Of a stretch of DNA of 64,000 nt, positions 45,204 to 58,246 are shown one piece after another. Each line of letters opens with the position of its first letter. Position 1 is the first letter of the stretch. The stretch comes from Clostridiaceae bacterium (GTDB taxonomy: Bacteria; Bacillota; Clostridia; Lachnospirales; Lachnospiraceae): assembly GCA_009911065.1 (NCBI GenBank), contig QXWR01000008.1:1-64000 (forward strand), read 5' to 3'. The translations under genes were made by a program, and so were the position numbers. Below the pieces are notes generated by a model that worked only from the letters and a program-made list of their open reading frames with translations, searched no databases and was not told the origin of the DNA.

Positions 45204-47951
45204 TCAAGGTTTTGCCAGATAATTTTGTAACAATTCAAAAGGCAGATTTTTTTTCCCTGTGGGCAGCTTCTCCCGCTCTTCCTGAATCTGTTTTGCTGTG
45301 TATTCCACCTCTTCTTTTAAATCTTTCGCGGACATTCGAATACAGCCAGCTCCTAAAATAATCCGCTGTTCCAGTCCGTCCGAAGTAGCCACCGTAACAC
45401 GTGCCTCTTTCCCCATTTTATAGGCAAACCGTTCGATATACTGGTCTGCCGTCTCTGCCTCTTTCGTATACACCACATGAATGTTGTGATAGTCTTCCGT
45501 ATGTCCTGGATTTCCCACCACTTTATAAGCGTCAAACACAACAATCAGCACACAAGAGCGAAACGCCTGATAATTGCACAAAAGATCCATCAGCTGGTAT
45601 CTGGCTCCGTCTATGGTTTCTTTTGCCAACTCCCTAAGCTCTTCCCAGGCAAAAATAATATTATAGCCGTCTACCACCAGATACTCCTCTTTAAACCGGA
45701 CTGATATGCCGGTCTGTTTACCGTTCTCTCCCCTTTCCATTCCCCCTTTCTTCTCTCGATTCTGTTTTCCCTCAGATCGTTCTTCTGTGGACTTTTCCTG
45801 ATATTTTACCTGCCGGGGTCCGTCATAAACCTGCCTTCTTTTGGGCGCTCCATAAGTACGGGCAAAAATCTCTTCCAGTTCTTTATCCTCTGCCCCGAAA
45901 ACGCCGTTGTTTCTCTGATTTTCTTTTCTAACAGAACCCAATGCTCCCCTTTTCTCTTCCGTTTTTTTTATTTTCTCCCTTTGGTCAAAATCCTCCTTCC
46001 CCTCTCCCCCACTGGCTGCAAATTGTTGGATTGCACAGCTTCCATCTACATGCATATAATCTTTCACCTGATCCCAAGGGACAACAAAACCTGCTCCGTG
46101 GGCGCAGAACACCGAACCAGTAGGATTGTCCAAATCTCCGTCTGGATCATAGCCAGCCTCATTTACGGCTTCTTCCTCATTATGACAAGGTTCATAACCC
46201 TTTAATGCACAAAAAAATCGGCCTCTTCCCCCGGTATAACGAACCACTTCCCTGGAATAATCCTGAATCGCCGCCACCGGAGCGCTTCCGGTAAGAACCA
46301 TGTTTTCTCCGTCTGGAAAGGGCGGTTCAAATTTTCCAAAAAGGCGTTCCAAATCTGCCATGGCTCTTCCCACACACTCGGTCGGCACTTCCAGCCGGAA
46401 GTTATAATAAGGTTCCAGCAGCTTACATCCTGCCTCCCGCAGCCCCTGACGTACAGCCCGGTACGTAGCCTGCCGGAAATCCCCGCCCTCTGTATGTTTC
46501 AAATGCGCCTTCCCTGCTATAAGCGTAATCTTCATATCCGTAATCTCAGCGCCAGTCAAAACACCTCTGTGGGTCTTCTCTTCCAAATGAGTCAAAATTA
46601 GCCTCTGCCAGTTTTTGTCCAACACATCTTCGCTGCAGCAGGTGTCAAACTGAAGTCCGCTTCCCTTTTCTCCCGGCTCCATCCACAAATGTACCTCTGC
46701 ATAGTGGCGCAGCGGCTCAAAATGTCCCACCCCTTCCACAGACCGTTCAATGGTCTCTTTATAAACAATTCTTCCGGCGCCAAATTCCACCTCGGTTCCA
46801 AAACGTTCCCCAATGAGATTTTTTAAAACTTCCAGCTGAACCTCTCCCATAATTTGAGCATGAATTTCCTGTAAAGATTCATTCCACACAATATGAAGCT
46901 GCGGCTCCTCCTCCTCCAGCTGCCTTAAACATCCAAGCATTTTCAGCTTGTCAAAACCTTCAGGAAGCAAAATCCGGTAAGTGAGAACCGGCTCTAAAAT
47001 CGGCATCTCAGATTCATTTTCCCCGCCGATTCCCTGTCCCGGATAAGTTTTTATTGGACCGGCCACTGCACAGACCATCCCGGCTTCGGCCTCTTTTATC
47101 GTCTCAAATTTCTCTCCAGAATACACCCGAATCTGATTGATTTTCTCTTCCTCTTTTCCAGGAAGCAGCTCCCGAACTTTCAAGCTGCCTCCTGTGATCC
47201 GCATATGTGTCAGCCGATTTCCCTGGCTGTCTCTGGAAATCTTAAAAACTTTTGCACCAAATATCTCCTTTGGCTTTGGACATTGAACCCATCTTTCCAG
47301 ATCTGTCAGAAATTCCTCCACGCCCTCTCCCTTGAGCGCAGAACCAAAATAGCAGGGAAATACCTTTCGCTCTCCAATCAGCTTTTGAATGTTTGTCTCC
47401 TCAATCGTTCCCTGCTCCAAATAGGCTTCCAGAAGGGATTCCTCACACATGGCAAGGCTTTCCAAAAGTTCATCTCCCCAAAGGCCAAAATCCATACAAT
47501 TTTCATCCAGCCGATGGCAAAGCTCCTCCATCAACTTCTGTCGGTCCGTTCCGTTTTGGTCCATCTTGTTGACAAAAAGAAAGCAGGGAATCTGGTAGCT
47601 CTTTAGCAGACGCCACAACGTTTGTGTATGACCCTGAACCCCGTCGGCTCCGCTGATGACTAAAACTGCATAATCTAACACCTGCAGCGTTCGCTCCATC
47701 TCTGGGGAAAAGTCCACATGTCCAGGAGTATCTATCCAGGTTATGGAAAAATCCCCCAGACAAAACACTGCCTGTTTGGAAAAAATCGTGATTCCTCTGG
47801 CTCGTTCCATTTCATTGGTGTCAAAATGAGTATCCCCTGTATCTACCCGCCCCATTTTCCGTATTTTCCCTGCCAGATATAAAATCCTCTCTGACAGTGT
47901 TGTCTTGCCTGCATCTACATGAGCCAAAATTCCAATGACTGTTCTCCTCAT
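45204..47951 (-). CDS. Tet(M)-like ribosome-protection GTPase fused to a Rae1/YacP-type NYN nuclease domain
   Basis: 915 residues. Residues 1-640 align in outline with the EF-G-like ribosome protection proteins: G1 AHVDAGKTT (10-18), G2 RGIT, DTPGH (74-78), NKMD (128-131), and a domain IV-V end with AIQDYSREVVRYTGGRG and ALKGYEPCH, matching the Tet(M) layout. A charged, low-complexity linker (about 645-750) leads to a complete NYN domain from 755: VVDGYN (D761), VFDAYK (D807), ETADQYIE (D836), ATSDGLEQ (D858), as in YacP/Rae1, the endonuclease that cuts mRNA in the ribosomal A site. Start: AGAGGAAG just before the ATG, 12 bases after the adhesin stop, so it is co-transcribed with the adhesin. 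Whether it gives tetracycline resistance is not known. Confidence 0.88.
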   Translation of the reverse strand: MRRTVIGILAHVDAGKTTLSERILYLAGKIRKMGRVDTGDTHFDTNEMERARGITIFSKQAVFCLGDFSITWIDTPGHVDFSPEMERTLQVLDYAVLVISGADGVQGHTQTLWRLLKSYQIPCFLFVNKMDQNGTDRQKLMEELCHRLDENCMDFGLWGDELLESLAMCEESLLEAYLEQGTIEETNIQKLIGERKVFPCYFGSALKGEGVEEFLTDLERWVQCPKPKEIFGAKVFKISRDSQGNRLTHMRITGGSLKVRELLPGKEEEKINQIRVYSGEKFETIKEAEAGMVCAVAGPIKTYPGQGIGGENESEMPILEPVLTYRILLPEGFDKLKMLGCLRQLEEEEPQLHIVWNESLQEIHAQIMGEVQLEVLKNLIGERFGTEVEFGAGRIVYKETIERSVEGVGHFEPLRHYAEVHLWMEPGEKGSGLQFDTCCSEDVLDKNWQRLILTHLEEKTHRGVLTGAEITDMKITLIAGKAHLKHTEGGDFRQATYRAVRQGLREAGCKLLEPYYNFRLEVPTECVGRAMADLERLFGKFEPPFPDGENMVLTGSAPVAAIQDYSREVVRYTGGRGRFFCALKGYEPCHNEEEAVNEAGYDPDGDLDNPTGSVFCAHGAGFVVPWDQVKDYMHVDGSCAIQQFAASGGEGKEDFDQREKIKKTEEKRGALGSVRKENQRNNGVFGAEDKELEEIFARTYGAPKRRQVYDGPRQVKYQEKSTEERSEGKQNREKKGGMERGENGKQTGISVRFKEEYLVVDGYNIIFAWEELRELAKETIDGARYQLMDLLCNYQAFRSCVLIVVFDAYKVVGNPGHTEDYHNIHVVYTKEAETADQYIERFAYKMGKEARVTVATSDGLEQRIILGAGCIRMSAKDLKEEVEYTAKQIQEEREKLPTGKKNLPFELLQNYLAKP

Positions 47952-47963
47952 TTTGCTCTTCCT

Positions 47964-50900
47964 CTATCTTTTTCTGAAAAACCTCCGAAAAATTTTTCGG
48001 ACTTTCTCCATTATAGCGAATCTTCTCTCTTTTGTCATAAAAATCCCGAAAAAAGTCAGGCAAATTCCAAAAAATGATAAGAAGAGAAGGATTCGATACC
48101 ACTCTCCATAGGACTTATCCCCAGTTTGAGGCAAATGAGGAACCCGCCTTCTTGGTATGTCCGTTTGTTCAAAGGAGGCTTTTGGCACTTCTGGCCAGTA
48201 GATCGCCGTTATTCTTCCTGGCTCTTTGGGAGTTTCAGGCTCGTGGGGAATCTGTGGGATTTCCGGTTCTTCTGGAGTATTGGGTCTCTTCTTTTTTATG
48301 TTTTTTACAATCAGCTCCAAAGTTTCTGCCTTTTTTGGCATCTGGAATTTTATTCGGTCTGCCTGTTGGTATCCTTCTGGCGCTTTCACCTCACACAGGT
48401 AATAAATTTTTCCTGCTGTCAGTTTTCCTGTGATTTCATGACTTTCCTCCCCGGAAATCCATTGTTCCAAAATCTTCCCTTCTTCATCCTCCACCTGCAA
48501 AACTGCCCCTCTAAGAGGTTTCTTTAAATCTCCATCTATTTTCGAAATCGCTGCCCTTGTGTGATCGTTTTTCATAACAACCAGATCTATAGCTCCGTTT
48601 AAACTGACCGTAAAAGACACTTCCTCTGCCCAGGCATATCCGTCCTTTGGCTGCACCTCCTCCAACTGGTAGGTTTTACCTGCCTCTAAAACTCCCACTA
48701 ATTCATAAGGTTCTTTTCCCGATACCCAGGATGCCACCTCTCTTCCCTTTTCGTCCTTCACCCGCAGACGGTTTCCCGGCAGCTCCGATTCTCCGGTTAT
48801 ATCCTTCTTGCTAAAAACCACACGGGTAGGCAGATCTTCCATAACGATAACCTTCTCCTTGCCGTCGCTGCTGACAATAAAAGGAACATCATCTGCAAAT
48901 CCATACCCTGCAGCCGGCTTCACCTCATGAAGCAGATACGATTCTCCGGCACATAGTTGTCCAAAAATCTCCACAGGTTCTGTTCCAGAACAAAAAATCA
49001 AAGGTTCCCCTCTTACAAAAGGCTCCTGATCCCGGACTGCCTTTACGGGTGTGTGGTCCGGATATAAAATCTGCAAAATGGCTCCGGCCACTGGTTGTTC
49101 CTTTGGATAGAAAGCCCATTTGTTTACCTTGATTTTTGTCTCCTCATCTTTCATAATAACCTGTTTTACAACACCGTTTTCCAACACGGTAAATTTGATT
49201 TCTTCTGCAAAAGCAAAGCCGTTAGCAGGATTCACTTCCTCCAGATAATAACTTTCCCCCGGCGTCAGCACTCCTTCCAGCACATAAGGTTCTTCTCCTG
49301 AAGTCCAGGAAGCAATTTCCCGCTTATCCAGATCTTTCACTCTCATCTGACAGCCGGGAATTTCCTTACTGCCAGTAATCTCTCTTTTTGACAAACTTAC
49401 TTTTGACTTTCGGTCCAATGCTGTAATATGGCGAATGGATGTGCGTTCTCCCAACGTAAAGGCCAAACGGCTGCTTTCCCTCCAAGTTCCATCGGAATAG
49501 CCGGTACGTTCTGTAAGCTGGTAACTTTGACCTTTTTGAAATAACATACCATCATTCAACCCGGTTTTCCGGTTTTCAATCACTTTTTCTGAAAACCCTT
49601 CTCGGACCAAAAAAGAATCGACTTTGCGTCCATCTCCATACTCCAAGACCAGTTCTGCCTTTTCAGCCTCCCTGCCGGAGATTTTACAATGCCCCTGTGT
49701 TTCAAAATGAAGAGCCATTGTCACTTGTCCGGATATTGGACAAGAACCGTCACTATATAAGGTTCGTTCTGTTATGGTGCAGATCTTCCCTTCCTCCAGC
49801 CCGGTTCTTGACTGTAAAAGGTATCCGTCCCGGCTTCCCGCCCAGCTCTCTGCCACCTTCCCGTTGTCATCTGAAAGCTCATATCTTACCTGAACCGGAT
49901 AGCGTCCCTGTATGGTAACTGCTGAAATAAAATCCGGATTTTCTGGCCAAGAAGAATGAACGGTGATTGTGTTAAGACAATTACTGATGTTTACAATTTG
50001 CCGGCCATCCCTGGACAAAGTAAACAGAATCGGCTCCATAATTCCATAACCATCCGGAGCAGAAAGCTCCTTTAAAAGATAACTGTGTCCCCCAATCAGT
50101 CCTTCCAGTTCTTGTTCCTCGTCTTTCTTCGACACCCATACAAACTTTGGAGATTCCTCCTCATAAATCAGCTGTCCATCCTCTCCCCTGCCTTTTATCT
50201 CGTAAACTGCAAATTTAGCGCCAGAAAGAAATCCTTCGCCCAAAATCCCTGCCAGATTATAAAAATCCTTTTTCCCAATAGAGACCCTGGTCGGCTGGTC
50301 CACCACCACAAACTGCTCCTCTGCCATCTCCTCAAACCTATAAGAGACGCCCTCTTTATCTGGTTTAAATTCCCAAGTAAAAATTCTGGTGTTGACTTCA
50401 TATCCGTCAGGAGGCAGGATCTCTCTCATTTTATAGAGATAAGGCTCAATGCTGCCATCCTCTTTGACCTCCCCCACCAAAAGCCCGTCTAACTGAATCA
50501 CTCCCTCTGGATCGGTGATTCTCTTTGTAAACACAGGATCTCTCATTTCCTGTTTTTTATAAGCTGCCACCTCAAACACCGCTCCTTTTAAAAGCTTTCC
50601 GTGGGGACTGTTTTTCTGGACCGTCAGACTGCCTGTCACTGGCACATTCTGCACCCGCACCAAACGGATTTCTTCATTTTGCTCATACTCAATCTTCACT
50701 GGTTTAAAAGTGGTATAGTAATCCGGGCTTTCCAGTTCTGCCAGCCAATAAATTCCGCTTTCTAACTTTCTGACTTCATGGGGCTTTGCATCCCCCACTT
50801 TATAGCCCTGCAAAATCTGTCCTCCTGCAAAATCCTGCTGAGTATACACCCCGTCTTGTCCAGTAAACCAGTCTGCTTTTAAATACCTTTCCTCCTGTAT

Positions 50901-53900
50901 AAACTCACCCTCTGGTCCCGCCTGGTATAATCCCAAATGAGCGCCGGCCAACTCTCCATCTTGGCTCACTGCAGTTTTGGAAATATATAGCTTTCCTTCT
51001 GTATTTTCTATGGAATGTCTTTGTACATTTGACGTATCCATCACCTGAATGACCCGGTCCTCCCCTTTGGCATATCCCATCGGAGCTTCTGTCTCTACCA
51101 GCACATAAGACATTCCCACAGGCAGATAATCCATCCGGCGCACTCCGTCCAAAGTAAAATAAGAACAGGCATAGGGATTGACCCACGGCAATGTGCGGTA
51201 ATCAAACTGATAGGAAAAGGAGTTGTTTCCATATACAATCACCCGAATTTTCACTCCGTCTTCCATGGAAAAAATCATATCTGCCACTGTGGGATGAAGA
51301 GACTTCTGGCCTCCGCTTATGGAAGCGTCAATGGAGCCAGAAGATTCATAACGGGCAGTATGCTGCCGGTCTTTTTCCATCCAAGATACCATGGTTCCCT
51401 TTTCGGTTCCAAACTCCCGGTACATCGCCTCAAAAGCAGGCATAAATCCAGAATATTCCTCTAAGTCACTGCTTATCCATTCATCGGTTCTTTTCTGGAG
51501 ATGATACATAGGCTTTCCCTCGTGAAACCGGACATTTCCCTCCGAATCCACCATGGCTTCATATAAAGCAAATTTTGCTCCTGCCAGAGGTTTTTTCTTT
51601 GTTCCTTCCATGGCATACTTTTCCATCTCCACTTTTGTATGATCGTTGTACATGGAGATAATCTGCACATTGGGCTGATTGGTAATTTCCACTTCCACAG
51701 GTTCACTGACTGCAAATCCTTCTGGCGCCGTTAATTCTTCCAAAATATAAGTCCCTTCTGGTATCCCCTCCACATAGATGGGCGTTGTGCCAGTAGTCCA
51801 TCTGGCAATCTTCTTTATGGTATCTTTTGCCTGACTGTCTGTTGATTCATACACAAAAGGCTGATCACTTATTTTTTCCAAATAATAACCTTTTTCTGCT
51901 GTGGGTGTATAAACCTTCTTTGCTTCAAACAACGCCAGTTCTGCCCCTGGAACCATTTGATAACTATAGCTGCCGTCTGGTTCCGTCATTTTTCCCTTTT
52001 GTCCCACAGACCCATCTGGATTGATCTTCCATAGTTGCATCCTTCTGCTTCCTGTCCCGTCGATCTTGGCAATCTCGATTTTTATCGTTTTATCTACCAT
52101 GGAACCATAATGCATCTGCGGCGTCTCCTGTATCAAAATCCCGGACGGAAATCCTTTCAAATACCCCTTTGGACTTACAAGCTCTTCCATAATATAATTC
52201 CCAGCTGGAACCCGCTTTAATATATCCGGCTGTCCGGCGGTTTTTTCTGTATGAAACGGATCGTTCGGACTGGAATCGGAAGTCATCCAGGTATTTTCAA
52301 GAATATACCCTTCTCCCTGCCGATGGTACAGTTTTTTCTGACGCTGTATTTCCACCTGTTCCTGTCCGTCATAAAGCTGATTGGGGGAATTGATATGGTA
52401 AGCATTGTTGTTGTATTTCATCAGATCATCCGAATCTTTATATCGGACAAAATCATTGTTCCGGTCATAAAGCCGAATACCTTTCCGGTAAGTTTCCTTA
52501 CTTTTTTGGTAATATTCTGGAAGGCCATAAGGGTTATACACTGGGTTTAATTCCCCTGAAAAACTGCCGTTATTTTTGTCTAAAAACATTTCTCCATTGA
52601 GATTTTTTCCAGACTGGGTTTGGCGGATTGTTTTTTCTATGTGGCTTTGTTCCCTTTCGTCTGGATGCCAGGTTCCGGTAATGGAACCAGACTCGGTATG
52701 TTGATAGGACGGAAGATCCTTTTCATCCAAATCCTTTCCTGAATGGTTAATCACATCAAGAACCCCTTGTTCTTCGTATCCTTCCTGATTTTCCCCCACA
52801 GTTGCCGGCCGCCATGTGGTGATTTTATCTCTGGCAATCATATTTCCATAAAGATCTTTATATTGCTTTACCGGCCATACCATCACTTTTCCTGTTGAAT
52901 CTCCTGGCACAGGCACATAGGCCATTCCAGTATCTGGATTTACCAGACTGTCCCGATTGCCGTCCCGGTCCAAATGATACACCAAAGTATCTTTAGAAAC
53001 CTTTAATCTTTTATCTTTGGAAGAATACTGAAGCTTCGTAAAATCACCCCCTGCAAACTCCAGATAGGCAGTTCCTCCTTTAAAAGCAAACAGCGATTCC
53101 TCTGTGTCGGACCGATGAAAATTGGCCTTATCGGACTGAACCATGGCAATCGGCACTTTTTTGTGATCTCTTCCATAGCCATAGAGAATCTCACGTCCAT
53201 CCATTCGATCAAGAGACGTTACCTCCAGACTGTCCAGATCATAATACAAAATATCGGTATCCGGCCGCTGTCTGGTAACAGCTGACCACACATCTTTCTC
53301 ATTTTCCAATACTGTTTTTTCCCCTCCATATCCCTCCTTTACATACATTCGAATTATGTTGTTTGTTCCATTTCGTTCCATGACAAGTCCCTCAAAGGCA
53401 TGATCCCCAATATCTCCAGAAGGGTTCAAAACCAGGGCGTCTACCAAAGTCATCTGTCCGCCCGCCACATAGGGATTCCGGTCTGTGGCCGTTTCCAGAC
53501 TTCTGGTCACATACCCATATCCGGCAAAAACCGATCCCTCAAAAGCAATCTCCACGGATTCTCCTGCTGCCTTTCTTGCAGCCAGATATTCCAGGGTTCC
53601 TTTTTTCCAGGCATACCCCAAATACTGCCCGTGTTCATAAGCGTAAACATAATCTGGATGATTGCCGATTTCTGCAAGTTTCCCATCCACCCGCCCACTT
53701 ACTCTGTATGTGACCGTCTTATTGGGAGTTGTGTTGGCAGTCTTCTCACTTGCCTCCTTCCATTTTTCCACTTTCAGTTTTATAGGGGTATTTTCCACAT
53801 TTACCCGCGCTACATGAGTTAAATCCCAGGATGAACTTTTGCCTTCCTCCAAAAAAGCTTCCTCATATAAAGCTGCCATCACCCGGTTATCTTTCTTCCC

Positions 53901-56246
53901 CTCCTTGTAGTAAGTTACCTTATCTGAGTAAATCTCAAGAGCCATAGGTTTGCTCCGCACATACCCAGCCGGAGCCTTTTCCTCACAGATCACATAACTC
54001 CCTGCTCCAAGAGGCTTTGGTGTTTCCAAATATCCAACGGTCTGAAGCTGCCATGATAAATCTTTATTCGTTTCTTCATCCTTCATTTTTCCATCCAGTA
54101 TCGTAGAATAAGAATAAAACACGCCGGTTTGATTCCCCTGTTGGTCTTCCAGCACAATTCTTTCCTCTTCTTTACAGACTGGCGTTCCTGACGCCACCAC
54201 CCCGGTGTACAGCGCTCCCGGCCCGTATTCTTTTCCTAACAGTCTGTGAAAAAAAGAGGTTTTACGAGGCACAGGCTGAAGATCCACCGCTCCCATGGAT
54301 TCCAGAAAGCCTTTGGTTCCAGTGATTCTGGTATTCTTTTTATAAAAACATACCTGCCCGTTTCCATCCAAGGAATCTTCTCTTTCTGCGGCATAAATTG
54401 CGAACAGCGCTCCGTCATGGAGAATATTTTCATGGGTCTCACTGTCCAGTTTTTCCAGTCTAAGCCTTGCCCCATAAAACTGGTTTGTAAATACAGCATT
54501 TGCAAATCCGCCAAATTCCCTTTCTTCACTTCCGGTTTTCAAAAAATCCTCTTCTTGTGATTTCCCTCCTTTTCCAACTGTAGTCACACTCCACGGAACC
54601 AACATAGGCGCATACCTTCCATCATAAGCTGTCTCCACGCCATGGACAGATAAAATCTTATGGTCTGCCTTTTTCTGTTCCGAAAGAGAACTGTATCGAT
54701 AAATTTGTCCAATCCCGTTTCCCCCTGACTGCCCTTCCGTCAAATAATAATCTACGGTTTCTGTCATTCGGTTGTCATTTTCATTGTAAGCATTCTGATA
54801 AGGTTTATAAGGGTTTTGGGTCAGGGCAAAATAATCCCCTTTTCCTGGTGTTTTGGGAACACCGTTTGAGACCGCCCCTATATCCATTCCATATTTATAG
54901 ATTTCAAAATCCCCCTCATAATTGTGGGCATAGATTACATGATCTTCCGGATTGAAACGAATGTGATATTTTCGCTCCATCTCAGCCTGGGACAAAGAGG
55001 AATTGTAATAATATTTTTCTTCCAGATCTGTCTGAATGGATGGCAAAATCACTTCCTTTGGCAAATCGGTTTTATAGTGTTTATTCTTAAAATCCAGCAG
55101 ATTTTTCTCGTATTCAAAACCTGCATATTGAGGCTGCTGTTCCGTTACCACATAAGTGCCATAAGGCAGGTATAGGGATGTGTTGCAATATCCGCTTTTG
55201 CGGACGCCTCCTTCCTGTATCTCGTCAAAAAGCTGGTCTGCTGACAAGGTGGAAGTATCCTGGTCCATGCCTCCTCCCGTTTCCCAATCCCAATGAATCT
55301 GGTAAATTTCATCCAAATCATAGGCGAAAAAAGGAGTCAAATAATTCTCTGCCTTTTTGATTGCCTCCCTTAATGCCCGGTCCAGAATTTCATCTGGATA
55401 ATCCACCTTTTTTTCTGCTGCTTCCATTTCTCCATCGTTTCCATTTACTGGAACTAACCGCTTTTTTACCTCTTCTTCCAGGTACCAGTCTATGGCAAAC
55501 TGCCGTACCTGATCGGATACTCTGGCATTTTCCAACGTCTCCTCCCTGCGGTTTGACTGGTTTCCTATTGGCTGCCAGCTGGTATAGGAAGGAGCCGCAT
55601 CTTCCCACTTATCATGGTTTGCCACTGCTATGGCATCAAAAAACTTTGTATAATTATAGACTTTCCCCGTTGGAAGCGTCTCTATAGTCTCTAAAACTGC
55701 TGTATACCCTTTGTTTGGTTCTTCATGAATCACTCCGTTGGTGCTGCCATACAAAATCTCATTGGCTATGATGCCATCACGGGAATCCTGGCAAAGCGGT
55801 TCCGTCTGGTGAAGTACTTTTGTGTAAATTTTAGGCACTTCCTTTGGATAGATGCGTTTGGCCTCCAAAACCTCCCTTTGTCCCATATCCTGCCCATTTC
55901 GGTCCTGCCAGACCACCTGTCCGTCCTCCCATCGGTAAAGGCGGGTTAAATTGGATTTTAAATAGACTTTAAATCGAAAATTATCCATTTTCCCCGCTCC
56001 TTCCCCCTTTTGTCCGTCTTCTGTATATCCCCCAAACAGCCTTGTAAACCAGTCTTTATGAACCTTTCCATAAGAGTCAAGATCATAAGAAATTTTGTCA
56101 ATTTCTTTGCAGACCTGAATCTTCTGCACAATCCCTCTCTGGTATACTTCCACTGGAATTTCTCTGGTACCTCCATCCTCATACACCATGTTCTGCCCAG
56201 GATACGGCAAAATCACCGGTTTTACATAAGTTTCGGTCAAATTCAT
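47964..56246 (-). CDS. Giant LPXTG-anchored SpaA/Cna-B repeat surface protein, 5' end probably cut off by the prophage
   Basis: 2,760 residues from the first ATG. At least eleven Cna-B/SpaA type units are seen by their closing pattern Y-x-L-x-E-x-x-x-P-x-G-[YF] (for example VICEEKAPAGY, ILEELTAPEGF, LLKELSAPDGY, LEEVQPKDGY), with openings such as KLDSETHENILHDGALFAIY; these domains usually form Lys-Asn isopeptide bonds. A Pro/Glu-rich wall-spanning stretch precedes LPQTG (2705-2709), a hydrophobic helix and a basic tail. No signal peptide, and no ribosome-binding site, precedes the ATG at 56246; instead the frame stays open for 41 codons upstream through NLVYSHG-like signal-peptide end sequence into the integrase terminator. 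The native start is probably on the far side of the prophage. No sortase gene is nearby. Confidence 0.85.
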   Translation of the reverse strand: MNLTETYVKPVILPYPGQNMVYEDGGTREIPVEVYQRGIVQKIQVCKEIDKISYDLDSYGKVHKDWFTRLFGGYTEDGQKGEGAGKMDNFRFKVYLKSNLTRLYRWEDGQVVWQDRNGQDMGQREVLEAKRIYPKEVPKIYTKVLHQTEPLCQDSRDGIIANEILYGSTNGVIHEEPNKGYTAVLETIETLPTGKVYNYTKFFDAIAVANHDKWEDAAPSYTSWQPIGNQSNRREETLENARVSDQVRQFAIDWYLEEEVKKRLVPVNGNDGEMEAAEKKVDYPDEILDRALREAIKKAENYLTPFFAYDLDEIYQIHWDWETGGGMDQDTSTLSADQLFDEIQEGGVRKSGYCNTSLYLPYGTYVVTEQQPQYAGFEYEKNLLDFKNKHYKTDLPKEVILPSIQTDLEEKYYYNSSLSQAEMERKYHIRFNPEDHVIYAHNYEGDFEIYKYGMDIGAVSNGVPKTPGKGDYFALTQNPYKPYQNAYNENDNRMTETVDYYLTEGQSGGNGIGQIYRYSSLSEQKKADHKILSVHGVETAYDGRYAPMLVPWSVTTVGKGGKSQEEDFLKTGSEEREFGGFANAVFTNQFYGARLRLEKLDSETHENILHDGALFAIYAAEREDSLDGNGQVCFYKKNTRITGTKGFLESMGAVDLQPVPRKTSFFHRLLGKEYGPGALYTGVVASGTPVCKEEERIVLEDQQGNQTGVFYSYSTILDGKMKDEETNKDLSWQLQTVGYLETPKPLGAGSYVICEEKAPAGYVRSKPMALEIYSDKVTYYKEGKKDNRVMAALYEEAFLEEGKSSSWDLTHVARVNVENTPIKLKVEKWKEASEKTANTTPNKTVTYRVSGRVDGKLAEIGNHPDYVYAYEHGQYLGYAWKKGTLEYLAARKAAGESVEIAFEGSVFAGYGYVTRSLETATDRNPYVAGGQMTLVDALVLNPSGDIGDHAFEGLVMERNGTNNIIRMYVKEGYGGEKTVLENEKDVWSAVTRQRPDTDILYYDLDSLEVTSLDRMDGREILYGYGRDHKKVPIAMVQSDKANFHRSDTEESLFAFKGGTAYLEFAGGDFTKLQYSSKDKRLKVSKDTLVYHLDRDGNRDSLVNPDTGMAYVPVPGDSTGKVMVWPVKQYKDLYGNMIARDKITTWRPATVGENQEGYEEQGVLDVINHSGKDLDEKDLPSYQHTESGSITGTWHPDEREQSHIEKTIRQTQSGKNLNGEMFLDKNNGSFSGELNPVYNPYGLPEYYQKSKETYRKGIRLYDRNNDFVRYKDSDDLMKYNNNAYHINSPNQLYDGQEQVEIQRQKKLYHRQGEGYILENTWMTSDSSPNDPFHTEKTAGQPDILKRVPAGNYIMEELVSPKGYLKGFPSGILIQETPQMHYGSMVDKTIKIEIAKIDGTGSRRMQLWKINPDGSVGQKGKMTEPDGSYSYQMVPGAELALFEAKKVYTPTAEKGYYLEKISDQPFVYESTDSQAKDTIKKIARWTTGTTPIYVEGIPEGTYILEELTAPEGFAVSEPVEVEITNQPNVQIISMYNDHTKVEMEKYAMEGTKKKPLAGAKFALYEAMVDSEGNVRFHEGKPMYHLQKRTDEWISSDLEEYSGFMPAFEAMYREFGTEKGTMVSWMEKDRQHTARYESSGSIDASISGGQKSLHPTVADMIFSMEDGVKIRVIVYGNNSFSYQFDYRTLPWVNPYACSYFTLDGVRRMDYLPVGMSYVLVETEAPMGYAKGEDRVIQVMDTSNVQRHSIENTEGKLYISKTAVSQDGELAGAHLGLYQAGPEGEFIQEERYLKADWFTGQDGVYTQQDFAGGQILQGYKVGDAKPHEVRKLESGIYWLAELESPDYYTTFKPVKIEYEQNEEIRLVRVQNVPVTGSLTVQKNSPHGKLLKGAVFEVAAYKKQEMRDPVFTKRITDPEGVIQLDGLLVGEVKEDGSIEPYLYKMREILPPDGYEVNTRIFTWEFKPDKEGVSYRFEEMAEEQFVVVDQPTRVSIGKKDFYNLAGILGEGFLSGAKFAVYEIKGRGEDGQLIYEEESPKFVWVSKKDEEQELEGLIGGHSYLLKELSAPDGYGIMEPILFTLSRDGRQIVNISNCLNTITVHSSWPENPDFISAVTIQGRYPVQVRYELSDDNGKVAESWAGSRDGYLLQSRTGLEEGKICTITERTLYSDGSCPISGQVTMALHFETQGHCKISGREAEKAELVLEYGDGRKVDSFLVREGFSEKVIENRKTGLNDGMLFQKGQSYQLTERTGYSDGTWRESSRLAFTLGERTSIRHITALDRKSKVSLSKREITGSKEIPGCQMRVKDLDKREIASWTSGEEPYVLEGVLTPGESYYLEEVNPANGFAFAEEIKFTVLENGVVKQVIMKDEETKIKVNKWAFYPKEQPVAGAILQILYPDHTPVKAVRDQEPFVRGEPLIFCSGTEPVEIFGQLCAGESYLLHEVKPAAGYGFADDVPFIVSSDGKEKVIVMEDLPTRVVFSKKDITGESELPGNRLRVKDEKGREVASWVSGKEPYELVGVLEAGKTYQLEEVQPKDGYAWAEEVSFTVSLNGAIDLVVMKNDHTRAAISKIDGDLKKPLRGAVLQVEDEEGKILEQWISGEESHEITGKLTAGKIYYLCEVKAPEGYQQADRIKFQMPKKAETLELIVKNIKKKRPNTPEEPEIPQIPHEPETPKEPGRITAIYWPEVPKASFEQTDIPRRRVPHLPQTGDKSYGEWYRILLFLSFFGICLTFFGIFMTKERRFAIMEKVRKIFRRFFRKR

Positions 56247-56372: not shown

Positions 56373-58061
56373 TCATTCACTATATAAAAATTCATGTTCT
56401 AAACCACTAGCGAACCGGAGCCGGGCGATCCGGCCGTCCTGGATAAATATTTCACTTGCAATCTGATCCACAAAATCCTTCAGGATCCCCGCGTCCAGGT
56501 CAACGGCTATTTGTCCATAATCAATATGGTTTTGGGAATTGATGTGCTGGGCCACAAGGAAAGCCGAAGCCTTTTTAATGAAAGACAGATCAGCAGCGCC
56601 GGAGCCGTCGCCATTCTTCAGGGCAGAAATGCGCTTTTCTATGTCGCGTATTCTGGCGGTCAAGTCGCGTTTCTTTTCTGAATATTCTTCCTTCGTGAGC
56701 GCGTCTGGATCGTACATGTACAATTCTGTCAATCTGGAAATAGCGTTCTTTTGTTTATCCCGTTCCCGCTTTAATATGACAAGCTGATCTTCCGAAGTGC
56801 CATCCTGGGCGCCAGATTCCCCTATATCCGGCACATATGCGCCCTTGCCTATATTTCTATCCCGCAGCATGGAAAACGTGATTTCTAGGCTTTCCGGCGC
56901 TATTCTCACATTCCGGAATTCAGGCCCGGCCAGAAGTGCGGATTCCAGCTTTTCCAGGGAATCAATGTTTTTGTGGTTCTTTTGTACCCTGGCAAGGTTG
57001 GCGGCATAATTGAACACGAACGGCCCCAAAGATAGATCGCTGATCATCCGCTTATTTTCACAATCCATTTGACGCGCCCGGCGCCCGCAGCGATAAACAG
57101 ACGGCCGAAGCCCGTTTTCCCGTTGCTTATCTTTTGCGGCGTTCATATTGCCGCCACACATATTACAGCTGACTTTTCCGCCGAAGATGTGAATGTGTCG
57201 CGTCTGCCTGATTTCGGACACGTCGCGGCTACTGGCGTTTTTGTCCATGATTTCATTACAGCGGATAAACTGATCCTTTTCAATGATTGCCTGATGATTG
57301 TTTTCTTTTACGATCCATTCAGATTTTGGCTTTTCCGCCCCGTGGAATTCACAGCGATTATATGTGTATGTTCCGATGTACAATTCATTTCGGAGTGTGC
57401 GCCGGATGTATTCAGGCAGCCATTCCGTGTGATATTTCGGTTTTACGCCGTTTTGCTGAAGGAACCTGGCAACCTTCCGGCATGAATGAAATTTTTCGTA
57501 CAAGTCAAAAATCATTTTTACCCTGTCTTTTTCTTCCGGTTCCGGAATCAGTATTTGCTTTTCAGGATCCGTTTTATATCCCAAAGGCGGCAGCCCGCCA
57601 TTCCACAAGCCATTTTCCGCGCGGTCAAGCATGATCCCGGTTACACGTTCGGAAGTCATGTTTCTTTCTAATTCTGCAAAAATCAGAATGATTTTCAGCA
57701 TAGCTTCCCCGATCGCGGTTGATGTGTCAAATTGTTCATTCATGGATATAAAAGTCACATGATGATCTTTCAATTCTTTGTACATTGTCGAAAAATCCAG
57801 AAGGTTCCTGGAAATACGGTCAACCTTCCACACAATCAAGTGTGAAAAGTTTCCCGCCCTGATATGTTCCATCATTTCTTGAAAACGCGGGCGATCGGTA
57901 TTTTTTGCTGAATATCCATCATCTTCAAATATTTCGTATTTATCTATTTCCAGCAGCTTACAATATTCTTTTAGCTTTTTCCGCTGAAACGGTAAACTAT
58001 CTTTATCAATCTGGTATCTGGTAGAAACGCGGACATATAGCGCCGCCTTTTGTCTTTTCAT
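56373..58061 (-). CDS. Large serine recombinase (phage integrase)
   Basis: 562 residues from the ATG at 58061. The resolvase domain carries ALYVRVST with catalytic Ser13 and the arginine patch VDRISRN; then the Recombinase domain (LPPLGYKTDP, IRRTLRNELYIG), a zinc ribbon CNMCGGNM with later CGRRARQMDC, and a coiled-coil (about 420-490) that controls directionality. Large serine integrases recombine attP and attB. The longer frame to 58133 runs through a terminator hairpin and lacks a ribosome-binding site, while AAGGGAAGG precedes the ATG at 58061. The gene ends 4 bases from its terminator and next to the truncated adhesin. Confidence 0.95.
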   Translation of the reverse strand: MKRQKAALYVRVSTRYQIDKDSLPFQRKKLKEYCKLLEIDKYEIFEDDGYSAKNTDRPRFQEMMEHIRAGNFSHLIVWKVDRISRNLLDFSTMYKELKDHHVTFISMNEQFDTSTAIGEAMLKIILIFAELERNMTSERVTGIMLDRAENGLWNGGLPPLGYKTDPEKQILIPEPEEKDRVKMIFDLYEKFHSCRKVARFLQQNGVKPKYHTEWLPEYIRRTLRNELYIGTYTYNRCEFHGAEKPKSEWIVKENNHQAIIEKDQFIRCNEIMDKNASSRDVSEIRQTRHIHIFGGKVSCNMCGGNMNAAKDKQRENGLRPSVYRCGRRARQMDCENKRMISDLSLGPFVFNYAANLARVQKNHKNIDSLEKLESALLAGPEFRNVRIAPESLEITFSMLRDRNIGKGAYVPDIGESGAQDGTSEDQLVILKRERDKQKNAISRLTELYMYDPDALTKEEYSEKKRDLTARIRDIEKRISALKNGDGSGAADLSFIKKASAFLVAQHINSQNHIDYGQIAVDLDAGILKDFVDQIASEIFIQDGRIARLRFASGLEHEFLYSE

Positions 58062-58097
58062 ATTGCCTTCCCTTCTCCACGAACCGAAAAAAGGCGC

Positions 58098-58130
58098 AAA
58101 AAAGAAAGCCGTTGATTTCAGGCGGCTTTC
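58098..58130 (-). terminator. Terminator between the lysogeny module and the integrase gene
   Basis: GAAAGCCG and CGGCTTTC (arms 58123-58130 and 58104-58111) pair perfectly and are followed by six T on the minus strand. It ends 36 bases before the integrase ATG, so it can act either on the upstream genes or as a leader attenuator. It is flanked by the inverted repeat GAACCGAAAAA (58081-58091) / TTTTTCGGTTC (58175-58185). Confidence 0.75.
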
Positions 58131-58246
58131 CATGCTATAATATATATGCTTATTTCCAGCTGGGAAGCCGCTTGTTTTTCGGTTCCTGGTTCTAAAGTCG
58201 GCCGGTGATTGCCGTCACTGGCTGACTGTTATAAAATTTTGTTTTG

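Follow-up and report, generated by a model that had tools for sequence, protein, structure and literature searches.

A GTPase joined to a Rae1-type nuclease domain is core-like in a family of Clostridia and stands in for stand-alone YacP

RESULTS

A GTPase and a Rae1-type nuclease domain share one chain

The window analyzed here is a 64,000-nucleotide stretch of a Lachnospiraceae genome (contig QXWR01000008.1, positions 1 to 64,000), and on its minus strand, from 47951 to 45204, it carries an open reading frame (ORF) in which an EF-G-like GTPase is followed by a nuclease domain of the Rae1/YacP type (NYN). We find that GTPase and nuclease in one chain form a real architecture, that the fusion gene is core-like in the window's family, and that the fusion stands in there for stand-alone YacP. 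We propose, with a probability only somewhat better than even (about 0.55), that the protein would act in Clostridia as a "GTPase-delivered Rae1", a core-like factor for the quality control of translation that is directed to the A sites of stalled or idle ribosomes. The original prediction, made from the window's letters, had placed a 915-residue chain at 45204-47951; these limits stood, and the strand, absent from that prediction, is now given as minus. The parts of the protein are as follows.

45204..47951, minus strand: whole ORF of the GTPase-NYN fusion, 915 amino acids (aa), with an ATG start and 915 codons
47286..47942, minus strand: G domain, residues 4-222, with G1 AHVDAGKT, G2 RGIT, G3 DTPGH and G4 NKMD (PF00009, 2.1e-51)
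46176..47255, minus strand: EF-G-like domains II-V, residues 233-592 (PF22042, PF14492, PF03764 and PF00679, all above cut-offs)
46476..46499, minus strand: loop III of domain IV, KHTEGGDF, residues 485-492 (SPVSTPADF in the genome's two Tet proteins)
46041..46199, minus strand: C-terminal tail of the GTPase part with C589 and C616, residues 585-637, seen in alignments to be common to unfused GTPase orthologues and not found in Tet-type paralogues
45681..46040, minus strand: hypervariable charged linker, residues about 638-757, with a predicted local distance difference test score (pLDDT) below 50 over most of 644-753
45852..45887, minus strand: linker motif ELxxIFxRTYG, residues 689-700, a predicted helix with a low mean pLDDT of about 55
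45246..45680, minus strand: YacP/Rae1 NYN nuclease domain, residues 758-902, with D761, D807, D836 and D858 (PF05991, 8.4e-50)

Pfam placed GTP_EFTU at residues 4-222 and EFG domains II, III, IV and V at residues 233-299, 320-391, 393-507 and 510-592, and the N-terminal part thus has both the G motifs and domains I-V of an EF-G-like translational GTPase. The C-terminal part scored 169.4 bits on the Rae1/YacP profile NYN_YacP (PF05991), for which the cut-off is 24.6. With Pfam domains I-V, NYN_YacP and the invariant aspartates described below, the predicted joining of a translational-type GTPase to an intact Rae1-type nuclease domain was borne out.

We compared the window's protein (P0001) with its relatives in two alignments. 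The first held 60 fusions, namely P0001 and 59 fetched from genomes picked for family spread (all frames intact; not a random sample). The second held 62 proteins, P0001 and 61 of 80 loci from named records that were found by GTPase-motif patterns and ranked by similarity, with 19 loci left out, one of them owing to an internal stop. The G motifs, all of which had been predicted, are present and were invariant or nearly so across the fusion alignments. The four acidic NYN positions D761, D807, D836 and D858 lay at the residue numbers predicted and were invariant in 60/60 fusions of the first set and 62/62 of the second, so the loss of these residues from most orthologues, which the prediction had named as a point to be checked, was not seen. 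The E-values and the conservation of the architecture over many families of the class show that the fusion does not arise by chance, and an error of assembly joining is excluded because a single open frame of 600 aa or more contained the NYN domain in 164 of the 200 family genomes searched.

The Bacillus subtilis YacP structures 5mq8 and 5mq9 matched the window's NYN domain (E of about 8e-26), and the catalytic core was the same in 59 fused and 16 stand-alone NYN domains. Some positions that are fixed in the stand-alone domains were looser in the fused ones, among them K830 (47/59 versus 16/16 stand-alone) and R872 (33/59 versus 15/16), the fused sample being the larger; a link between this looseness and recruitment by the GTPase would be a guess. 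Rae1 is described as an endonuclease whose target is mRNA in the A site of the ribosome (PMC6613710, PMC12320835, PMC8266666). The NYN domain of the fusion may likewise cut A-site mRNA in a ribosome-dependent manner.

Distribution of the fusion

We searched 200 genomes, which represent 199 genera of the window's family, with the PF05991 profile and with P0001 as the query for the GTPase (E up to 1e-85). A fusion was scored on frame length together with a GTPase match, and small second fragments in G030, G061, G145, G215 and G241 were not scored as separate genes. PF05991 matched in 179 genomes and gave no match in 21. Of the 179 matches, 164 lay in a single frame of 600 aa or more, 4 lay in shorter frames (256-516 aa) resembling fusions interrupted by a contig end or a frame break (G078, G081, G190, G192), and 11 lay in a short unfused frame. 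The GTPase query matched in 177/200 genomes; the long frame of G149 scored too low for its threshold and proved to be a divergent fusion, and the match in G054 was Tet-like (34-36%). In total, 168 genomes carried the fusion, usually one per genome, 9 carried both parts apart (an adjacent split in G033, a broken GTPase in G082), 2 had an NYN domain without an orthologous GTPase (G005, G054), 21 had neither part, and none had the GTPase alone. The 9, 2, 0 and 21 of the 32 unfused genomes give a Fisher p of 2e-6, uncorrected for shared ancestry, and some of the 21 genomes with neither part may belong to lineages in which the two were lost together. In the genus, a fusion frame was present in 22/24 genomes and the other 2 had no PF05991 match. 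These data indicate that the fusion gene is core-like in the window's family. The divergent fusion of G149 (L312), which is 28% identical to the window's protein in the GTPase and 32% in the NYN domain, possibly represents a separate lineage.

We also sampled 147 genomes each from the order and the class, a few of them in common with the family set. Order and class gave a long frame in 50 and 53 genomes, a short NYN only in 80 and 46, an intermediate frame in 2 and 1, and no NYN in 15 and 47, respectively. A long frame together with a full stand-alone copy occurred in these samples only in G301 and G317; a further candidate for such a pair, G453, was not counted, its second match being under the cut-off. 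A phylum sample gave a GTPase match at 1e-85 in 13/199 genomes, and 12 of these matches lay in long frames. Among the named carriers are Anaerovorax odorimutans, Intestinimonas butyriciproducens, Fusibacter sp. 3D3 and Ruminococcus flavefaciens. In G301 and G317, which belong to another family, the long-frame NYN domain is accompanied by a divergent stand-alone NYN near rlmB and sigH (L191, L192).

Lack of stand-alone yacP

Carriers of the fusion mostly have no separate yacP, a check that the original prediction had suggested. In the window's genome (100% complete, 6.23% contamination), the fusion was the one PF05991 match, with no other YacP. We fetched 11 stand-alone NYN loci, from 10 of the 11 unfused family genomes and from G278 of the order sample. 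The gene lay directly 3' of rlmB in 8 of them (L181, L183-L189), and the other three (L180, L182, L190) had no genes of the cysS-mrnC-rlmB operon beside it. These three loci, in G048, G182 and G278, have another neighbor family in common. Most fetched unfused relatives are thus stand-alone genes of ~170 aa adjoining rlmB, a form that the 915-aa fusion does not share. In the window's genome, cysS, mrnC and rlmB lie together (L290), and the next 0.8 kb is another open frame with no NYN. Likewise, no NYN lay within 0.65-0.78 kb after cysS-mrnC-rlmB in 18/18 congeners examined (L282-L287, L289, L291-L297, L299-L302), of which 16 have a fusion frame and two, G679 and G686, have no PF05991 match. 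These data indicate that the fusion stands in for stand-alone YacP in the family.

The operon context of the free gene bears on another explanation, in which the fusion is a ribosome-assembly or rRNA/tRNA maturation factor whose GTPase recognizes an immature subunit and whose NYN domain trims rRNA. Unfused YacP is often in an operon with mrnC and rlmB, which serve 23S maturation and 23S methylation, respectively (PMC8266666, PMC6613710), and a role in rRNA/tRNA maturation was the older proposal for YacP (cited in PMC4342817). The fusion, however, lies outside this operon and without a conserved partner, and the action of Rae1 has been placed on A-site mRNA (reports cited in PMC6613710 and PMC12320835). 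We consider a maturation role improbable.

Origin of the fusion

We built a GTPase-domain tree of 56 rows (the window's protein, 30 of the 59 fetched fusions, 21 unfused proteins including L159 and three Tet-like ones, 2 Tet proteins and 2 EF-G) and an NYN-domain tree of 63 rows (30 fused domains, 12 unfused ones of the family including L159, and 21 others). Support values come from the Shimodaira-Hasegawa-like approximate likelihood ratio test (SH-aLRT) on quick trees without bootstraps, and values below 95 are not strong. In the GTPase tree, all fusions together with the split locus L159 formed one clade (99). L169 adjoined this clade (92), the remaining unfused orthologues followed, and the Tet proteins were outside (100). 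The NYN tree again joined the fusions and L159 in one clade (90), adjoining 11 stand-alone NYN domains of the family (joint clade 93). Fusions of other families (f2, f17, f25, f42, f65, f74) were nested within the fusions of the window's family. These trees are read most simply as one fusion event between two genes, followed by horizontal spread and by at least one later split.

Relation of the GTPase part to Tet proteins

By sequence, the closest solved relatives of the GTPase part were TetO and TetM. The window's genome (G000) encodes two Tet proteins, at C265:4685-6517 (L003) and C217:7356-9188 (L004), which are Tet(M)/Tet(W)-class ribosome-protection proteins above curated cut-offs; they are 32% identical to the GTPase part of the fusion. 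On the NCBIfam profile tet_protect (NF012153, cut-off 775 bits), these positive controls scored 860 (L003) and 839 bits (L004), and P0001 fell short at 426 bits. P0001 also fell short on tet_protect_M_W (NF033148), with 296 bits against a cut-off of 1100. The tet_protect scores of two more fusions (425.9 and 398.7 bits) and two unfused orthologues (441.6 and 378.1 bits) were of the same order. A Foldseek search had EF-G/EF-2-type structures among its top 50 and did not tell Tet and EF-G apart.

The tetracycline site is within the small-subunit A site. Tet-type GTPases get to the drug's site by way of domain IV, whose tip reportedly displaces tetracycline (PMC4342817, PMC4750697). The fusion lacks the Tet-type loop III at this tip and has AHLKHTEGGDFR, as against YYSPVSTPADFR in the genome's two Tet proteins. 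Within the loop, H486, T487, D491 and F492 were each present in 60/60 proteins of the first set and in 61, 62, 61 and 61, respectively, of the 62 in the second. The near-invariant K-H-T-x-G-G-D-F tip is common to the fusion and the unfused orthologues, and EF-G has VDSSEMAF there. Since Tet(M) stays active with a triple loop III substitution (PMC4750697), the difference in loop III is not decisive against tetracycline protection, and we dropped it as proof of that kind.

These comparisons bear directly on the possibility that the protein provides genuine ribosome protection by removing tetracycline or another drug from the A site, its NYN domain destroying mRNA or adding a second resistance activity, which is close to a suggestion made by Atkinson in 2015 (PMC4342817). 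Consistent with such a role are the sequence relation to TetO and TetM, a loop III of about Tet(M) length whose sequence can vary (PMC4750697), and public labels: plasmid records assign one of two listed fusions (H2; not H1) to the TetM/TetW/TetO/TetS family, a label also carried by 31 of 33 listed GTPase-only orthologues of Ligilactobacillus salivarius. However, the protein stays below Tet cut-offs that the genome's own two Tet proteins pass (426 of 775 and 296 of 1100 bits), its near-invariant KHTEGGDF tip differs from their SPVSTPADF, and its presence in 168/200 family genomes, usually in one copy, is unlike that of an accessory resistance gene. We regard this explanation as unlikely.

The emphasis of the original prediction on Tet(M) and on drug-stalled ribosomes was not supported, given the 32% identity to the genome's two Tet proteins, the failed curated cut-offs, the other loop III and a spread that resembles that of core genes and not that of resistance genes. 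The separation from the Tet profiles and the different loop lower the claim that this is a Tet protein, and the fusion may still act on a drug. As judged from profiles and trees, the GTPase part makes up its own subfamily among the EF-G-like factors, one that neighbors the Tet ribosome-protection proteins.

A conserved tail and a fusion-specific linker motif

The two cysteines of the tail were near-invariant (C589 in 60/60 and 62/62 proteins of the two sets, C616 in 59/60 and 61/62). A zinc site made up of C589, H590, C616 and H618 was nevertheless a weak candidate because the histidines vary (H590 in 45/60 and 48/62, H618 in 45/60 and 60/62), and we did not retain it.

The predicted model (whole model 83.1, predicted template modeling score [pTM] 0.65) gave the linker a pLDDT below 50 over residues 644-753 except around 689-700. 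The charged linker had been predicted, and the conserved motif inside it had been missed. In the first set E691, I695 and T699 were present in 60/60, 59/60 and 57/60 fusions, and in the second set in 58/62, 60/62 and 54/62. A regular expression for the motif matched 55/59 fusions, 0/21 unfused GTPase proteins (17 orthologues, 3 Tet-like proteins and the GTPase half of L159) and 0/19 unfused NYN proteins; a variant of the motif, read by eye, is kept in the GTPase half of L159. Conservation in fusions only argues for selection on this peptide in the fused proteins, where it could be a latch or a ribosome docking site, either being possible.

A hypervariable, mostly disordered linker would also suit a fusion of genetic convenience, in which a housekeeping GTPase and a Rae1 nuclease are independent and the shared chain only fixes their stoichiometry. 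In many genomes of the class the parts are indeed encoded separately, and often one is present where the other is not. Against convenience stand the conserved motif specific to fusions, the persistence of the fusion over many families with one adjacent split (L159) among the fetched loci, and, in those genomes of the window's family that are unfused, the joint presence of the two parts. We find this explanation doubtful.

Neighboring genes and mobile contexts

The 59 fusion loci had no conserved neighbor: the commonest neighbor family, ABC ATPase-like by eye, occurred in 9/59, and the idea of a conserved neighborhood was rejected on this count. A same-strand ORF lay within 60 bases upstream in 16/59. 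In the window, an ORF for a 2,3-bisphosphoglycerate-independent phosphoglycerate mutase follows the fusion 23 bases downstream on the same strand. Upstream, also on the same strand, a 2,760-aa ORF (47964-56246, minus strand) ends 12 bases from the fusion; its C terminus, with LPQTG, a hydrophobic stretch and a basic tail, looks by eye like that of a wall-anchored surface protein. This ORF adjoins a large serine recombinase (56373-58133, minus strand; Resolvase, Recombinase and Zn-ribbon domains) that is perhaps part of a mobile element.

Among 40 of 1264 matches listed, 33 records were L. salivarius plasmids bearing a GTPase-only orthologue of 51-52% identity, 31 of them annotated as TetM/TetW/TetO/TetS-family resistance. 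One such locus, L319 (NZ_CP020859.1), has transposase genes on both sides and scored 378 of 775 bits on tet_protect.

Two fusion-bearing records, both unannotated, are named "Bacteriophage sp." Five ORFs scanned in MT835514 (L318, MT835514.1) included AddB-, UvrD-, MraW- and tRNA-synthetase-type genes; the record is therefore probably a bacterial contig, and phage carriage was rejected. The second record, MT835563, is less clear: of 4 ORFs scanned, 1 gave a match, a peptidoglycan-binding protein. A role as an anti-phage or self-limiting nuclease, halting translation on infection, is conceivable in that a ribosome-directed RNase could, by inference only, shut translation down. PADLOC, however, gave no match for the fusion, on which ground we set a defense role aside, and with a core-like distribution and no conserved neighbors such a function is very improbable.

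DISCUSSION

Most sampled genera of the family have the fusion in place of the free enzyme, and it is therefore probably a housekeeping factor rather than a drug-resistance factor. We argue that both parts work on the same ribosomes because the GTPase is joined to YacP in fused genomes and retained along with it, unfused, in others of the family. In the mechanism that we propose, the N-terminal GTPase would bind ribosomes with an empty or blocked A site, GTP hydrolysis would let the GTPase body withdraw, and the NYN domain, on its linker of ~120 residues, would enter the A site and cut the mRNA codon. The mRNA, truncated by the cut, would pass to trans-translation or to another route of rescue, and decay of the message would begin. 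The two domains could hardly both be in the A site at once, and for this reason sequential action is proposed. We infer that the protein binds ribosomes and cuts in the A site, that the steps follow in this order, that a stalled or idle state is the signal, and that the linker motif has a role.

Several findings weigh against this proposal. The gene is missing in 21/200 genomes of the family and 2/24 of the genus and is therefore not essential everywhere. Class-wide, each part can exist without the other: 42 of the 46 genomes with an unfused NYN in the class sample had no GTPase orthologue (G378, G435 and G462 gave a Tet-like match of 34-37%, and G363 a match of 31%), and the 8 genomes with an unfused orthologous GTPase were divided between 4 with a short NYN and 4 with no NYN. 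Co-occurrence of GTPase and NYN was accordingly rejected as a general rule, since it holds in the family and fails across the class. The loop III length is also close to that of Tet(M) in most fusions shown, and the tip could still dislodge a drug. The four genomes with an unfused GTPase and no PF05991 match (L160, L161, L162 and L167, in G361, G389, G403 and G364) suggest that the GTPase may have a nuclease-free role.

A bolder and more tentative version of the quality-control proposal is a "clear-and-cut" rescue machine, in which the GTPase would both sense and clear the A site, the tethered NYN domain would cut the exposed codon, and the linker motif would act as latch or docking peptide. 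If this were true, much of Clostridia would have exchanged free Rae1 for a GTP-driven, ribosome-directed mRNA endonuclease, and the unfused relatives of the protein would represent a two-component system that existed before. More broadly, the fusion bears on how A-site mRNA cleavage finds the right ribosomes, as it points to a factor that Rae1 may work with, and the unfused GTPase is a candidate partner of free YacP in genomes with both. Some of these proteins are labeled as tetracycline resistance in public records, and resistome surveys may therefore count a housekeeping gene as resistance.

The architecture itself was printed in 2015, when Atkinson described Tet proteins with a YacP-like NYN domain in ten Clostridiales species and suggested resistance via RNase activity (PMC4342817). 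In line with the original prediction, which knew of no described activity for such a fusion, we found none reported beyond that suggestion in the available text of the open-access literature, a scope outside which the primary Rae1 papers lie. Within the searches made, the new points are that the gene has a core-like distribution, that it replaces stand-alone YacP, and that the two parts co-occur in the family and fail to do so across the class. The trees, the distinction from Tet proteins and the linker motif peculiar to fusions are new as well.

Compared with known systems, the window's protein is closest in design to the Tet-NYN fusions of Atkinson 2015. It has the same architecture, a Tet-type GTPase and a YacP-like NYN domain in one chain, comes from the same bacterial group (the named relatives are Clostridia by their titles), and is a member of that kind; in contrast to the grouping with Tet made there, we find a separate clade, a core-like YacP substitute and a linker motif specific to the fusions (PMC4342817). 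With Tet(M) and Tet(O), which are its best sequence matches among solved structures, it has in common the five-domain, EF-G-like GTPase; it differs in being 32% identical to the genome's Tet proteins and below the curated cut-offs, and in having another loop III, an extra C-terminal tail and the NYN domain. TetB(P), likewise a clostridial Tet-like GTPase, is 33% identical over an alignment limited to query residues 1-603, and the end of the tail and the NYN domain are therefore unmatched. Rae1/YacP of B. subtilis (5mq8, 5mq9) has the NYN domain with all four acidic positions, but it is a free protein (a 181-residue chain in the entries) whose gene stands beside yacO/rlmB (PMC6613710), whereas the NYN domain of the window lies C-terminal to a GTPase and outside that operon.

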